A DNA stretch of 64,000 bases. Origin: Candidatus Desulfofervidaceae bacterium (GTDB lineage: Bacteria > Desulfobacterota > Desulfofervidia > Desulfofervidales > Desulfofervidaceae). The position numbers were made by a program, and so were the translations under genes. The notes under the pieces are model-generated. The model saw nothing but the letters and a program-made list of their open reading frames with translations, was not told the origin of the DNA and did not search any database. This document shows, one piece after another, positions 12,480 to 17,347 of this stretch. The DNA lies in the NCBI GenBank assembly GCA_027038965.1, contig JALWFG010000021.1, positions 62,001-126,000 of the forward strand. The letters run 5' to 3'. Positions within the stretch are counted from its first letter, which is position 1, and each line of letters starts with the position of its first letter.

Positions 12480-13115
12480 TTATGGCAAAAAAGAAGGGAC
12501 AAACATGTTGATAATGTAATAAATCCCAATGATAATTAAAATAATGCCTGTAATTCGGTTAATTAACTTGTGGTCAAAATTTTTCTGGTTTTTTCTTATC
12601 CAGAAGAGGATAAAGGGCCACCATGTGCTGGCCCCGCAAATCATCCCTATCAATACCAGAAACCGGCTGGTCAAGCTCAGGGATACATGAATGAGGCCTA
12701 ATATTGTCAAGACCAGGAGAAATCCTAAAAGATTTAAAGGATTCAAAAGGGCAAATCCAAAGGTGGTAAAAAATACATGCTGACTATAAAGAATCTTTTG
12801 TTCTGTTTTATTTGAAGCGCGTTTTTGTAAAATCAATCTTAGTCCTATTAAAAGAACCAAAATTCCCACACTAAAGTGCAGGGCCATCTCATGAGAAGGA
12901 AGTTTCTTTTCAATAAAAGACACAAAGTGTTTGTCAAATATAAACAAAAAAGTATAAATGAGGTCTGCTGTAATCATTCCAAAGGCCGCTGCAAAGCGGG
13001 CAATGCCTTTATGCAAAACAGCATATCTTATGGTTACCACACCTACCGGCCCAATAGGTGCAGAAACGATCATTCCTGCCAGTAATGCACGCAAAAAGAT
13101 TTGATAATGGTTCAT
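12480..13115 (-). CDS. LysE/ArgO-family amino acid exporter
   Basis: This small multi-spanning membrane protein has the LysE signature near the N-terminus (MIVSAPIGPVGVVTIRYAV) and a conserved central GFALLNPLNLLGFLL block. About six hydrophobic segments are visible, matching the family's ~210 residues. The frame is also open from 13157, adding 14 polar residues. The shorter start fits the family better, but neither start has a well-placed ribosome site. LysE proteins export basic or neutral amino acids; the substrate cannot be read. It is divergent from the aromatic-attenuator promoter, so a link to aromatic amino acid balance is possible but unproven. Confidence 0.8.
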   Translation of the reverse strand: MNHYQIFLRALLAGMIVSAPIGPVGVVTIRYAVLHKGIARFAAAFGMITADLIYTFLFIFDKHFVSFIEKKLPSHEMALHFSVGILVLLIGLRLILQKRASNKTEQKILYSQHVFFTTFGFALLNPLNLLGFLLVLTILGLIHVSLSLTSRFLVLIGMICGASTWWPFILFWIRKNQKNFDHKLINRITGIILIIIGIYYIINMFVPSFLP

Positions 13116-13166
13116 AAAAGTTTCAAAGGAATTAAAACTGGATGTTTTTATCACCATTATTAACTC

Positions 13167-13195
13167 TTGACAACTCCTTTTCTCTGTGCTAGTAA
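13167..13195 (+). promoter_or_regulatory. Promoter of the aromatic operon
   Basis: A perfect -35 hexamer TTGACA (13167-13172) is followed after 17 bases by TAGTAA (13190-13195), which has an extended -10 TGC immediately before it. Transcription would start near 13202, only a few bases before the ribosome site of the leader ORF. That is typical of attenuated amino acid operons. Confidence 0.65.
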
Positions 13196-13218
13196 AGTTC
13201 CAATTCTAGGAGATGGTT

Positions 13219-13326
13219 ATGTGCAGGCTGTTGAGTCCTAAACCAAGTAAAGTTGAAGTGGGAAGGAGTTACTTTTATTATTTTTGGTATTATTGGTTTA
13301 GGCGGGGTCTGCCCACTATCTCCTAA
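13219..13326 (+). CDS. Aromatic leader peptide (35 aa, YFYYFWYYWF)
   Basis: This short ORF is ATG at 13219 to TAA at 13324-13326, with ribosome site AGGAG (13208-13212) spaced 6 bases. An in-frame ATG at 13213 sits too close to that site. After 17 ordinary residues, codons 18-27 (13270-13299) encode ten consecutive aromatic residues: Tyr, Phe, Tyr, Tyr, Phe, Trp, Tyr, Tyr, Trp, Phe. Eight more residues (RRGLPTIS) and the stop follow, and those final codons overlap the first arms of the downstream RNA structures. It stands before four shikimate-pathway genes. The layout is that of a ribosome-stalling leader peptide such as TrpL or PheL, here sensing charged tRNA-Tyr, tRNA-Phe and tRNA-Trp together. 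The codons are read directly; stalling is inference. Confidence 0.85.
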   Translation: MCRLLSPKPSKVEVGRSYFYYFWYYWFRRGLPTIS

Positions 13327-13421
13327 GTGAGACCCCAAAAAGGATAAAGGCCGTGGGCAGACCTGACCGTCGCCCACGGCTGAGATAGAAGGCCGTGGAG
13401 AAAACCTTCACGGCTTTTTTT
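13304..13421 (+). promoter_or_regulatory. Ribosome-mediated transcription attenuator of the aromatic operon
   Basis: Five segments can pair in competing ways. Segment 1 (13306-13316) is exactly complementary over 11 bases to segment 2 (13353-13363). Segment 2, read as 13350-13358, pairs 9 of 9 with segment 3 (13372-13380). Segment 3 (13374-13380) pairs 7 of 7 with segment 4 (13392-13398). Segment 4 forms the terminator with segment 5 (13409-13414). A ribosome stalled on the aromatic codons leaves segment 1 free, so 1:2 and then 3:4 form and transcription continues. A ribosome at the leader stop covers segment 1, so 2:3 and 4:5 form and transcription ends. Extra helices are possible: 13304-13310 with 13330-13336 (7 bp) and 13316-13322 with 13382-13388 (7 bp). 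Confidence 0.8.
13389..13421 (+). terminator. Intrinsic terminator of the attenuator
   Basis: A 12-bp stem (13389-13400 with 13406-13417, two G-U pairs, core GCCGTG/CACGGC) closes a 5-base loop. It is followed by T residues 13415-13421. It lies 33 bases before the first operon gene, so read-through must be regulated. Confidence 0.85.
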
Positions 13422-13453
13422 ATTTTTAAACAAATTTTTAAGGAGGATGGGCG

Positions 13454-14272
13454 ATGGGAATTGATTTAGTAGGCAAACAAATTGGTAAGAGGGTTAGACT
13501 TGAAAGAATCTTCAACCGAGATACTGGTAAAACAGTAATCATCCCCATGGATCACGGCGTAACTGTAGGTCCTATTGCCGGATTGGCAGATATGAAGAAT
13601 ACCATTAATGAGGTAGCTTATGGTGGGGCCAATGCCATTGTTATTCACAAAGGTATTGTTACGGCTGGACACAGAGGAGGGGGGCCTGACGTGGGACTCA
13701 TCATTCACCTTTCTGGAAGCACGTCTTTATCTCCTTTTCCTAACTCAAAAACCCTTGTATGTACCGTAGAGGAGGCCATTCGTTTAGGGGCAGATGGGGT
13801 TTCTATTCATATCAATCTTGGAGACGAAAATGAAAAAGAAATGCTGAGGGATTTTGGAGAGGTAGCCAATAAGGCCTTTGAATGGGGAATGCCCCTTTTG
13901 GCCATGGTCTATCCCAGAGGTCCAAAGATTAAAGACAGCTATGACCCGGATATTATTGCCCACTGTGCCCGCTTAGGGGCTGAGCTTGGAGCGGATGTAG
14001 TGAAGGTGTCTTACACTGGTTCTCCAGATACATTTAAAAAGGTAGTTGAGGGCTGCCCAGTGCCGGTAGTGATTGCAGGTGGGCCCAAGATGGATTCGGA
14101 CCGAGCCGTGCTAGAGATGGTCAAAGGGGCCATTGAAGCAGGAGGAGCTGGAGTTTCAATTGGACGAAACGCCTTTCAACACAAAAATCCACGCCAGATG
14201 GTAAAGGCAATTGCCAGGATTGTCCATGAAGGTGTAAGTGTTGAAGAGGCATTAAAAGAGTTGGAGGGTTAA
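13454..14272 (+). CDS. 2-amino-3,7-dideoxy-D-threo-hept-6-ulosonate synthase (archaeal-type shikimate entry)
   Basis: This 272-residue class I aldolase-like enzyme makes the 7-carbon precursor of dehydroquinate from aspartate semialdehyde and a deoxy-ketohexose phosphate, replacing DAHP synthase. The full TIM barrel is present. Residues D33 and H34 (PMDHGV), Y153 (MVYPRG) and the Schiff-base Lys K184 (VVKVSYTG) fit the Asp33/Tyr153/Lys184 set I recall for the Methanocaldococcus enzyme. AGGAGG lies 7 bases upstream of ATG 13454. It is the first structural gene after the aromatic attenuator and is 2 bases from the DHQ synthase II gene. FbaB-like aldolases are the nearest alternative, but the neighbour decides the call. 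Confidence 0.92.
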
Positions 14273-14274
14273 CC

Positions 14275-15267
14275 ATGAAACAGGTATGGGTAAAGGTAAT
14301 TCCTTGGCAGAAGAAGCTTGTCACCACTGCCCTTGAGGGTGGGGCAGATGCGGTGATTGTAGAAAGGGGAAAAACCGAGGCGGTAAAAAAGTTGGGTCGG
14401 ATAAAAACAGTGGCTGAAGATGGGGATTTAAAGCCTAACCAAGATGTGGTGTTTATGGAAATTAAGGGGAAAGAGGACGAAGAAAAGGCCTTAGCACTTT
14501 CTAAGCAAAAGATAGTGGTCATTACCGAAGCAGATTGGAAAATCATTCCGCTTGAAAATTTGGTAGCCCAGACAAGTAATATCTTTGTAGAAGCCCACAA
14601 TTTGGAAGAGGCCCAAGCATTTTTGGGCGTATTGGAAAAGGGCGTTGATGGTGTAGTTATAGATACTACAAATGTAAATGAATTAAAAAAGATACTTGAT
14701 ATAACTAAACGCTGGTCTGAAAAAACAGAGGTTCAAACGGCCCAAATTACCGCTGTCAAACCGTTGGGAATGGGGTATCGGGTTTGTGTGGACACCTGCG
14801 ATTTGATGGAAATTGGTGAGGGTATGCTTGTGGGCAATAGCAGTGCGGCCCTGTTTTTGGTCCATGCCGAAAATGTAGAAAATCCCTATGTTAGTCCTCG
14901 CCCTTTCAGGGTAAATGCCGGGCCAGTGCATGCCTACATTCGCACCACAGGTGGAAAGACAAAGTATCTTTCAGAATTGAAGGCTGGCGATGAGGTCTTA
15001 TTGGTTAACTATAAAGGTGAGACTCGCCCAGGGGTGGTGGGGCGAGTGAAGGTAGAACGTCGTCCCTTGTTATTGGTAGAAGCAGAAGTGGGCGGAAAAA
15101 AGATAACGACCATCTTACAAAACGCTGAAACTATCCGCCTTACCACACCAGAAGGCAAACCCATTTCTGTAGTTGAGCTTAAACCTGGAGATGAAGTAGT
15201 TGTAGCCCTAGAAGAGGCCGGCAGGCACTTTGGGCACAAGGTAGAAGAGACCATTATGGAGAAATAG
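14275..15267 (+). CDS. 3-dehydroquinate synthase, type II (AroB')
   Basis: This 330-residue protein of the archaeal-type DHQ synthase family performs NAD-dependent oxidative deamination and cyclisation of the ADTH synthase product to 3-dehydroquinate. Typical blocks are visible: the N-terminal KQVWVKVIPWQKKLVTTALE, the central GMGYRVCVDTCDLMEIGEGM followed by LVGNSSAALFLVHAE, then NAGPVHAYIRTTGGKTKYLS, and the C-terminal barrel ending VVVALEEAGRHFGHKVEETI. It follows the ADTH synthase after a 2-base gap and precedes aroE by 3 bases. No classical aroB or aroF/G/H gene is in the window, so this pair presumably supplies the pathway. Confidence 0.93.
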   Translation: MKQVWVKVIPWQKKLVTTALEGGADAVIVERGKTEAVKKLGRIKTVAEDGDLKPNQDVVFMEIKGKEDEEKALALSKQKIVVITEADWKIIPLENLVAQTSNIFVEAHNLEEAQAFLGVLEKGVDGVVIDTTNVNELKKILDITKRWSEKTEVQTAQITAVKPLGMGYRVCVDTCDLMEIGEGMLVGNSSAALFLVHAENVENPYVSPRPFRVNAGPVHAYIRTTGGKTKYLSELKAGDEVLLVNYKGETRPGVVGRVKVERRPLLLVEAEVGGKKITTILQNAETIRLTTPEGKPISVVELKPGDEVVVALEEAGRHFGHKVEETIMEK

Positions 15268-15270
15268 AAG

Positions 15271-16098
15271 ATGCCTTGTATAGATGCCAACACAATGCTT
15301 TATGGCATTATCGGGCATCCAGTCAGACATAGCTTTAGCCCTCTAATTCATAACTTTGCCTTTAAAACCCTGAACATCAATGCCATTTATCTGGCCTTTG
15401 ATGTGACGGATTTGCCTTCTGCTGCCCTTGGAATACGGGCCTTAGGAATCAAAGGGCTCAGCGTAACCATTCCTCACAAGACAAGCATTATGCCCCTGCT
15501 TGACGAAGTTGATGATACGGCTAGGCAAATTGGAGCCGTTAATACGATTATAAATAGAGGTGGTTGGCTTATTGGCACAAATACCGATTGGATAGGAGTC
15601 GTCTCAGCGATTAAGGAAAGGGGAAAAATCCAAGGCAAAGATTATCTGATTCTTGGGGCCGGGGGAGCGGCTAGGGCAGTGGCCTATGGGCTTAAAAAAG
15701 AAGGGGCAAAGGTGGTAATTTGCAATCGCACCTATGAGAAGGCCCGATCCCTAGCTGAGGAATTGGACCTAGAGGTAATCAAGTGGGAAGATAGAAATGA
15801 CTTTAGGGCCTACGGTTTGGTGAACACTACCCCGGTAGGAATGTGGCCTGAAGTAGATAAAAGCCCTATGGAGCAGAAGGCCCTAAAAAACTATGCCCTG
15901 GTTATGGATGCGGTTTATCGACCCCTTGAGACATGTCTTTTAAAACAAGCAAAGCTGGCTGGGTGCCTTTGTGTGGATGGATTAAAGATGCTTATTTATC
16001 AAGGAGTGGAACAATTTAAACTTTGGACTGGAAAAGAACCTCCCATAGAGGGTATGTTTAAAATCGCAATTGAGATTTTGCAAAATGAACAAAATTAA
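15271..16098 (+). CDS. aroE: Shikimate dehydrogenase
   Basis: This 275-residue enzyme reduces 3-dehydroshikimate to shikimate with NADPH. Substrate residues are in GIIGHPVRHSFSPLIHN (Ser-x-Ser) and VTIPHKTS (catalytic Lys). The nucleotide fold shows LGAGGAARAVAYGL and NRTYEKA, followed by NTTPVGMWP, DAVYRP and a C-terminal GLKMLIYQGVEQFKLWTG. Length is normal. The first ATG (15271) is kept because the family usually has about ten residues before the YGIIG strand. It overlaps the 3' neighbour aroA by 14 bases. 3-dehydroquinate dehydratase, needed just before this step, is not seen in the window. Confidence 0.96.
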   Translation: MPCIDANTMLYGIIGHPVRHSFSPLIHNFAFKTLNINAIYLAFDVTDLPSAALGIRALGIKGLSVTIPHKTSIMPLLDEVDDTARQIGAVNTIINRGGWLIGTNTDWIGVVSAIKERGKIQGKDYLILGAGGAARAVAYGLKKEGAKVVICNRTYEKARSLAEELDLEVIKWEDRNDFRAYGLVNTTPVGMWPEVDKSPMEQKALKNYALVMDAVYRPLETCLLKQAKLAGCLCVDGLKMLIYQGVEQFKLWTGKEPPIEGMFKIAIEILQNEQN

Positions 16099-17347
16099 GA
16101 CAATTAAGCCATTAACTCAAGGAATTAAGCTCAAAATTTCCGTCCCTGGCTCTAAGAGTTTAACTCATCGGGCCTTGATTGCAGCGGCCTTAGCCGATGG
16201 CCAAACAGTGCTTCAAAACATGCTGGTGGCTGAGGATACCATGCTTACCCTAGGGGCCCTTAAAGCAATGGGAATAGGGATTGAGACAGATAATACTACA
16301 GCAGTCATAAAGGGCAGGGCAGGGTATCTGAAGGCGCCGTCAGAACCGATTTATCTTGAAAATTCTGGAACATCCATGCGTCTTTTAACAGGAATTTGTG
16401 CCTTGGCAAAAGGAAGGTTTGTTCTCACAGGTAATGAGCGAATGAGACAGCGTCCTATTCAACCCCTTTTAGAGGCCCTGCAAAAATGGGGCGTAAGGGC
16501 ATACAGCGAAAAAGACAATGGTTGTCCACCGGTAGTGATAGAATCAAATGGCTTAGAGGGCGGAGCAACTGAAATTGATGCCACCCTAAGCAGCCAGTTC
16601 TTATCGGCCCTTTTGCTAGCCGCACCCTATGCTCAAAAACCTGGAGTTATAAAGGTAAAAGGAAAACTGGTGTCATTGCCTTATGTAGATTTGACCCTGC
16701 AGGTGATGGAAGACTTTGGCATCAAGGTAGAACATCATGATTACCAGGTGTTTAAAATAGGGCAGGGGTGTTATAAGGCACGCCCTTATACCATAGAGGG
16801 AGATTGTTCTACTGCCTCCTATTTTTGGGCAGCGGCAGCCGTTTTAAAAGGTGAGATTACTGTGCGGCCCATTTCTATTCACACTAAACAAGCCGATTTT
16901 AAACTGCTAGATATCTTAAAACAGATGGGTTGTCATATAGAGGCAAGCGGTGATGGAGTAAAAGTGATTGGTGGGAATTTGGTAGGAGTGGAGGTGGACA
17001 TGAATAAAATGCCTGATGTGGTGCCTACCTTGGCAGTGGTGGCGGCCTTTGCCAAGGGAAAAACAAAGATTACAGGCATTGGCCACTTAAGACATAAAGA
17101 ATCCGATCGGATTCAGGCGGTAGCCACCGAGCTTCAAAGAATGGGAATCAAGGTAATAGAGGGAGATGACTATCTTATTATCTGGGGTGGAAACCCTCAG
17201 CCTGCTATGATTGAAACCTATAATGATCACCGTATTGCCATGAGCTTTGCTGTAGCTGGATTAAAGTTGCCGGGAGTAAAGATAATCAATCCAGAATGCG
17301 TCAAAAAGTCCTTTCCAGGGTTTTGGGAAACAGAAATGTTTAAATAA
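16085..17347 (+). CDS. aroA: 3-phosphoshikimate 1-carboxyvinyltransferase (EPSP synthase)
   Basis: This 420-residue enzyme transfers enolpyruvyl from PEP to shikimate-3-phosphate. Motifs: VPGSKSLTHRALIAAALADG (substrate Lys/Ser), LENSGTSMRLL, ERMRQRPIQPLLEALQKWG, LSSQFLSALLLAAPY, EGDCSTASYFWAAAAV, KESDRI and YNDHRIAMSFAVAGL. The frame is open from 16070, but ATG 16085 (MNKIKTIKPL) is the better start because it shortens the overlap with aroE to 14 bases. It is the last recognisable aromatic gene of the operon. A 170-base gap then precedes cvpA, so transcription may or may not continue. Confidence 0.95.
   Translation: MNKIKTIKPLTQGIKLKISVPGSKSLTHRALIAAALADGQTVLQNMLVAEDTMLTLGALKAMGIGIETDNTTAVIKGRAGYLKAPSEPIYLENSGTSMRLLTGICALAKGRFVLTGNERMRQRPIQPLLEALQKWGVRAYSEKDNGCPPVVIESNGLEGGATEIDATLSSQFLSALLLAAPYAQKPGVIKVKGKLVSLPYVDLTLQVMEDFGIKVEHHDYQVFKIGQGCYKARPYTIEGDCSTASYFWAAAAVLKGEITVRPISIHTKQADFKLLDILKQMGCHIEASGDGVKVIGGNLVGVEVDMNKMPDVVPTLAVVAAFAKGKTKITGIGHLRHKESDRIQAVATELQRMGIKVIEGDDYLIIWGGNPQPAMIETYNDHRIAMSFAVAGLKLPGVKIINPECVKKSFPGFWETEMFK

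Follow-up and report, generated by a model that had tools for sequence, protein, structure and literature searches.

What does a short open reading frame (ORF) with ten consecutive aromatic codons do directly upstream of an operon for aromatic amino acid biosynthesis? The question is raised by a locus in a 64,000-nt stretch of DNA (the window) from a Candidatus Desulfofervidaceae bacterium, and a sequence-only reading had proposed a leader peptide that senses all three aromatic amino acids. Our analyses of sequence conservation and predicted RNA folding argue for a ribosome-mediated transcription attenuator of the common aromatic pathway, a reading to which we assign a probability of about 0.92. 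The features from the promoter to the end of the operon are as follows (ADTH, 2-amino-3,7-dideoxy-D-threo-hept-6-ulosonate):

13167 to 13172, plus strand: proposed promoter −35 element TTGACA, perfect consensus, invariant in five same-family genomes (that of the window and four others)
13190 to 13195, plus strand: proposed −10 element TAGTAA with an upstream TG (extended −10) and a 17-nt spacer, read by eye; TG-n-TA is kept in the alignment of the five genomes
13208 to 13212, plus strand: Shine-Dalgarno sequence AGGAG of the leader ORF, 6 nt 5′ of the ATG
13219 to 13326, plus strand: leader peptide ORF, 35 codons plus stop, MCRLLSPKPSKVEVGRSYFYYFWYYWFRRGLPTIS
13270 to 13299, plus strand: putative sensor, ten aromatic codons YFYYFWYYWF (5 Tyr, 3 Phe, 2 Trp)
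13454 to 14272, plus strand: ADTH synthase gene (aroA'), TIGR01949 with 388.6 bits (cut-off 299.45), ribosome-binding site AGGAGG at 13441 to 13446
14275 to 15267, plus strand: 3-dehydroquinate synthase II (aroB'), above the NCBIfam cut-off
15271 to 16098, plus strand: shikimate dehydrogenase (aroE), above the NCBIfam cut-off
16085 to 17347, plus strand: EPSP synthase (aroA), above the NCBIfam cut-off

The ORF, its correctly spaced AGGAG and the aromatic run had been pointed out before and are confirmed by sequence and translation, with the codons TAC TTT TAT TAT TTT TGG TAT TAT TGG TTT in the run; a second in-frame ATG at 13213 adjoins the Shine-Dalgarno sequence and would be a poor start. 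The densest nine-codon window in the 400 nt upstream is entirely aromatic (9/9), and the expectation that such a run is improbable by chance is borne out by dinucleotide shuffles, none of 5000 of which reached 9/9, with a single one reaching 7. Aromatic runs are rare on the reverse strand of ADTH-synthase upstream regions (about 1% or less), and none was found upstream of 13 aldolase paralogs with at most 40% identity in related genomes. The shuffles and these two controls rule out a chance run from AT-rich DNA.

All four genes behind the leader exceed their NCBIfam cut-offs, which upholds their assignment to the shikimate pathway, and the operon makes the precursor that phenylalanine, tyrosine and tryptophan share. 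Transcription is predicted to start near 13202. We infer this promoter, since a simple promoter scan did not report it and called a weak site within the leader instead. The divergent neighbor gene (12480 to 13157, minus strand) has a weak LysE-type translocator match (23.9 bits, cut-off 25.6) and possibly encodes an amino-acid exporter.

Alternating RNA arms and a predicted switch

The 127 nt between the leader stop codon and the ADTH synthase gene hold an intrinsic terminator (13391 to 13421) and alternating complementary arms, and with the end of the leader ORF six regions can be distinguished:

13304 to 13316, plus strand: region 1, GGGGTCTGCCCAC, overlapping the last leader codons (GLPT); pairs with region 3 (11 bp) or region 2
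13330 to 13336, plus strand: region 2, AGACCCC, 3′ arm of the 1:2 hairpin (probable pause hairpin); kept less well in relatives
13349 to 13363, plus strand: region 3, GGCCGTGGGCAGACC; pairs with region 1 or region 4
13372 to 13380, plus strand: region 4, GCCCACGGC; pairs with region 3 (termination state) or region 5 (antiterminator)
13391 to 13399, plus strand: region 5, GGCCGTGGA, 5′ arm of the terminator
13406 to 13421, plus strand: region 6, CTTCACGGC (pairing arm 13406 to 13415), and U-run, forming the intrinsic terminator with region 5

These arms allow two mutually exclusive states, an antiterminator of 1:3 and 4:5, and a terminator of 3:4, 5:6 and the U-run. In computed folds, the RNA ending before region 6 adopts 1:3 and 4:5, and the full leader RNA adopts 1:2, 3:4 and 5:6 (z −6.4). 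With the ribosome represented by masking the A site plus 9 or 12 nt, the predicted antiterminator probability was 0.98–0.99 for an A site at any of codons 18 to 25, dropped to 0 from codon 26 or 27 on, depending on the footprint assumed, and was 0.00 with the ribosome at the leader stop codon. The permissive zone includes the first Tyr (13270), Phe (13273) and Trp (13285) codons; codons 5′ of the run are also permissive, and the run, which ends at codon 27, represents the last part of the zone. With few exceptions among the masking states, the complete RNA favors the terminator at equilibrium; the switch must therefore be a kinetic one and would work by competition between helices during transcription.

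In the mechanism that we propose, RNA polymerase would start near 13202, with a ribosome translating the leader ORF behind it. A shortage of charged tRNA for Tyr, Phe or Trp would stall the ribosome within the aromatic run and leave region 1 free to pair with region 3; region 4 could then pair with region 5, the terminator hairpin 5:6 would come too late, and transcription would continue into the four aro genes. If all three amino acids are plentiful, the ribosome would reach the stop codon and cover regions 1 and 2, which would permit 3:4 formation, leave region 5 free for 5:6 formation ahead of the U-run, and end transcription before the ADTH synthase gene.

The locus contains what is seen in attenuators of the trp/phe type: a short ORF with a ribosome-binding site and codons for the pathway products, a terminator before the first structural gene, an antiterminator that depends on ribosome position (by folding only), and conservation of frame and codon class. 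Rfam gave no match in 12900 to 13700 even at E ≤ 1, with Trp_leader, Phe_leader and T-box included, and none at the gathering threshold in 11 related loci. A terminator of the upstream gene is ruled out, as that gene lies on the opposite strand.

Conservation in the family and spread in the phylum

The sequence-only reading had suggested an alignment of the upstream regions of the ADTH synthase gene in related genomes, and a short ORF with clustered aromatic codons is indeed conserved in four genomes of the same family, which share the promoter, the ORF, the RNA arms and the terminator with the window. Their leader peptides are MRKTLTATKNYYFYFWYYWFGRGLPTVS (L002), METLKAIGSVNFYYFYFWYYVGRGLPAVS (L003), MKKVGLKYGYFYYYKWGLPTVF (L004) and MQQLKGGFYYFSYFDLGLPTVS (L005), and the aromatic runs of the four relatives read NYYFYFWYYWFG, NFYYFYFWYYVG, YGYFYYYKWG and FYYFSYF. 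The frame and the aromatic class are kept while codons drift, the N-termini vary, as does the order in which Phe, Tyr and Trp appear, and leader length ranges from 22 to 35 residues in the family. The C-terminal GLPT is conserved in the family leaders, which is explained by the pairing of region 1. Of the five family members, four have Trp codons within the permissive zone; the leader of genome G002 has no Trp codon. The 1:3 helix is invariant in the five genomes except for one A-U to G-U change, and RNAalifold found almost no covariation in the family arms, with one pair changed on both sides, since the arms are nearly invariant within the family. The 1:2 hairpin that overlaps the leader folds in the window and is weak in some relatives. 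With the ribosome at the stop codon, the antiterminator is predicted at intermediate levels of 0.4–0.5 at equilibrium in genome G003 and still at 0.7–0.9 in genome G001, where 3:4 would have to form first.

In the phylum Desulfobacterota, 87 ADTH-synthase loci were considered (five of the family and 82 others), and a scripted search that called leaders at a threshold of at least 6 aromatic residues in 9 codons found them at 51 of these loci, in 17 families as labeled in the genome database, the other 36 being below the threshold. Runs of at least 7/9 aromatics occur at a frequency of 0.45 at the loci of other families, whereas the reverse strand gives 0.01 and shuffles give 0.0002. Phe and Tyr are present in all 51 leaders and Trp in 38. 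A terminator lies between the leader and the gene in 51/51 cases, versus 7 of the 36 ADTH-synthase loci at which no leader was called and 2/13 aldolase paralog loci; of the seven, at least three carry a weaker aromatic leader. The reverse strand of the 51 loci was terminator-like in 18, which is the background of the custom terminator scan. For a ribosome placed at the first aromatic codon, the predicted sequestration of the terminator 5′ arm was 0.81, compared with 0.42 for one at the stop codon; it fell by more than 0.3 between these positions in 34 of 47 loci and rose as much in none. Shuffled spacers gave a lower value than the real ones in the stalled state (0.64 versus 0.81, Wilcoxon p about 1e-9).

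ADTH-synthase loci of Planctomycetota and Bathyarchaeota showed no enrichment of aromatic runs. A single upstream ORF (uORF) with FYFGYWFWFYY precedes the ADTH synthase gene of one planctomycete (Phycisphaerales, L070); the remaining Planctomycetota loci that were examined have none. Searching plasmids for the ADTH synthase gene yielded nothing further.

Pathway-matched leaders, known attenuators and rival readings

Leaders with sensor codons that match the downstream pathway are also found at other genes of the same genomes. The genome of the window has a leader MFGLCWWWALQMAME with a terminator before trpE, relatives have MLKIRNWWWLLQGAME, ..NWWWAL, ..YWWWLLRTAME and others, each with a terminator, and G001 has a leader MAAGINLDFFFYFMIYPPRSRP (..DFFFYF..) with a terminator before pheA (L261, about 1090 to 1230); no such leader was seen at pheA in the genome of the window, G002 and G003. 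The sites of the trpE leaders and of a hairpin core, GCCGTG..CACGGC-n-TTT, are:

L248, 1230 to 1283, and also L247, L241, L245, L242, L243 and L244: leaders with Trp runs (WWW or WCWW) and terminators before trpE, in the genome of the window and relatives
Window, 13346 to 13380 and 13392 to 13418: hairpin core in the aro leader
Genome of the window (G000), contig C16, 137923 to 137992: hairpin core sites

The core occurs four times in the 2.19-Mb genome, twice in the trp leader and twice in the aro leader, and its matches lie mostly in trp or aro leaders in most related genomes searched. This restriction points to a common origin or to a factor that binds both leaders, and shared descent of the trp and aro switches appears likely. 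The comparison suggests a modular attenuator, in which trp, pheA and the common pathway use one RNA switch, each with its own sensor codons. Two further leaders were noticed: G149 has an FWGWWF leader with a terminator before a DAHP-synthase-like gene (identified by eye; L303, about 1370 to 1550), and G280 has an aromatic leader GYRFYWFYLTEVYPLSP with a terminator before a gene for a PAS-domain sensor-like protein, which is not an aro gene (L301, about 1320 to 1610).

Leaders that read several amino acids are textbook knowledge from ThrL (Thr/Ile) and IlvL (Ile/Val/Leu), in which, as proposed here, a single leader serves a shared or branched pathway, but these are not aromatic and have no mixed Phe/Tyr/Trp run. 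The closest described system is the aroR leader of aroF in C. glutamicum, reportedly described by Neshat et al. in 2014. Like the locus in the window, it combines a mixed aromatic leader with an attenuator before the first gene of the common pathway, but it lacks Trp, precedes a DAHP synthase gene instead of an ADTH synthase gene, and belongs to another phylum. Its sensor is Phe-Tyr-Phe, and it responds to Phe and not to Tyr (PMC4046766; PMC11802643). The E. coli leaders trpL and pheL (PMC11802643) share the leader codons, the mutually exclusive terminator and antiterminator, and the kinetic switch by ribosome position, but each senses one amino acid with a four-region RNA, whereas six regions without an Rfam match are present in the window. 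In Acholeplasma, the uORFC-13-1 motif likewise places a uORF and a terminator before aroF, the first shikimate-pathway gene, but with Phe codons only and a different RNA (PMC8632094). A table published in 2005 that draws on Merino's database (PMC1173090, Table 7) gives a predicted attenuator in front of aroA'-aroB' for Desulfovibrio vulgaris, which is of the same phylum; the first two genes and the terminator/antiterminator arrangement agree, but no leader peptide or sensor codons were described. The claim that no mixed leader of this kind had been described thus stands in part: we found no Phe/Tyr/Trp leader in the open literature (Lopatovskaya et al. 2010 and Vitreschak et al. 2004 may hold earlier predictions for the phylum), but mixed Phe/Tyr and other multi-amino-acid leaders and the D. 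vulgaris prediction were known. The mechanism would be classical ribosome-mediated transcription attenuation, and new, as far as the accessible literature shows, are the three-amino-acid sensor for a common pathway and its phylum-wide spread. With a single short RNA, a shortage of any one of the three end products would be enough to switch on their shared pathway, and the ADTH/DHQS-II route would receive a testable regulatory assignment in a phylum with few genetic tools.

The strongest rival is a narrower version of the same attenuator, which would sense only one or two of the aromatic amino acids (Tyr and/or Phe), with minor Trp codons and no three-input OR gate. It would agree with the universal presence of Phe and Tyr in the 51 bacterial leaders, of which just 38 contain Trp, with the Trp-free leader of G002, with the separate WWW leader on trpE, and with the one-sided response of AroR (FYF) to Phe (PMC11802643). 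On the other hand, Trp codons are positioned in the permissive zone in most of the family and are kept by most leaders of the phylum. We regard this narrower sensor as the less probable version, and Tyr, Phe and Trp are probably all effective inputs. The OR sensor that had been proposed is thus compatible with the predicted permissive zone, which covers the first codon of each amino acid, while an equal response to the three is uncertain in view of AroR and G002.

Readings without a sensing leader fare far worse. A functional small protein as the product of the ORF, with an incidental terminator, would be in line with the ORF's good start and its conservation, but the N-terminus is not conserved, the length varies, GLPT has its explanation in the RNA pairing, the peptide has no Pfam match, and a terminator follows every one of the 51 leaders; we consider this very unlikely. 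Equally improbable is control by a riboswitch, a T-box or a protein-bound leader, with an aromatic run that simply reflects AT-rich sequence. The strong structure of the leader RNA speaks for such an element, but Rfam does not recognize this RNA, shuffles do not yield such runs, and the run lies in the frame from start to stop in 17 families. A leader peptide of mixed design that senses aromatic amino acids is supported by the conservation of frame and aromatic class, by the attenuator structure, and by the pathway-matched leaders in the same genomes.

A candidate counterpart in Methanomicrobiales

An aromatic-run uORF also precedes the ADTH synthase gene in about 50 of 57 genomes of the archaeal order Methanomicrobiales. 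At least 6 aromatics in 9 codons are reached in 75% of the 57, the corresponding figures being 0.9% for shuffles and zero for the reverse strand, and nearly all genomes reach at least 5. The run, for example FYYRYYFWY or AYRYSGFGFYFWY (loci L111–L140 and L161–L187), forms the very end of the uORF, a hairpin starts a few bases 3′ of the stop codon, and in many loci (e.g., L119, L124, L136, L162, L178) its 3′ arm covers or touches the Shine-Dalgarno site of the ADTH synthase gene. In a folding comparison of the set without its last two loci, placing a ribosome on the last aromatic codon raised the probability of an unpaired Shine-Dalgarno site from about 0.1–0.4 to about 0.5–0.8 in many loci, though not in all. 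These predictions somewhat favor translational attenuation, in which ribosome stalling at the Phe/Tyr/Trp run before the hairpin would control the aromatic operon. No Trp-run leader was seen before archaeal trpE.

No transcription attenuation or antitermination is known in archaea according to a 2021 paper (PMC8448881), and we found no described example of leader-peptide control of amino-acid synthesis in Archaea in the literature. The archaeal counterpart is the more surprising lead compared with the bacterial attenuator and would, if true, open the archaeal domain to leader-peptide mechanisms.

The archaeal loci also contain a conserved, apparently leaderless ORF with its own stop codon, M[CQR]G[EG]CFFAG[ED][CR]FY.. 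(e.g., L161, L135, L178), and third-position variability is highest in its frame. In most species the aromatic uORF is +1 to this ORF, and at least seven loci (L118, L124, L126, L169, L174, L175, L179) have both in one frame. A programmed +1 frameshift in the archaeal leader is suggestive only; candidate readings of the leaderless ORF are such a frameshift, an overlapping ORF, or an RNA motif.
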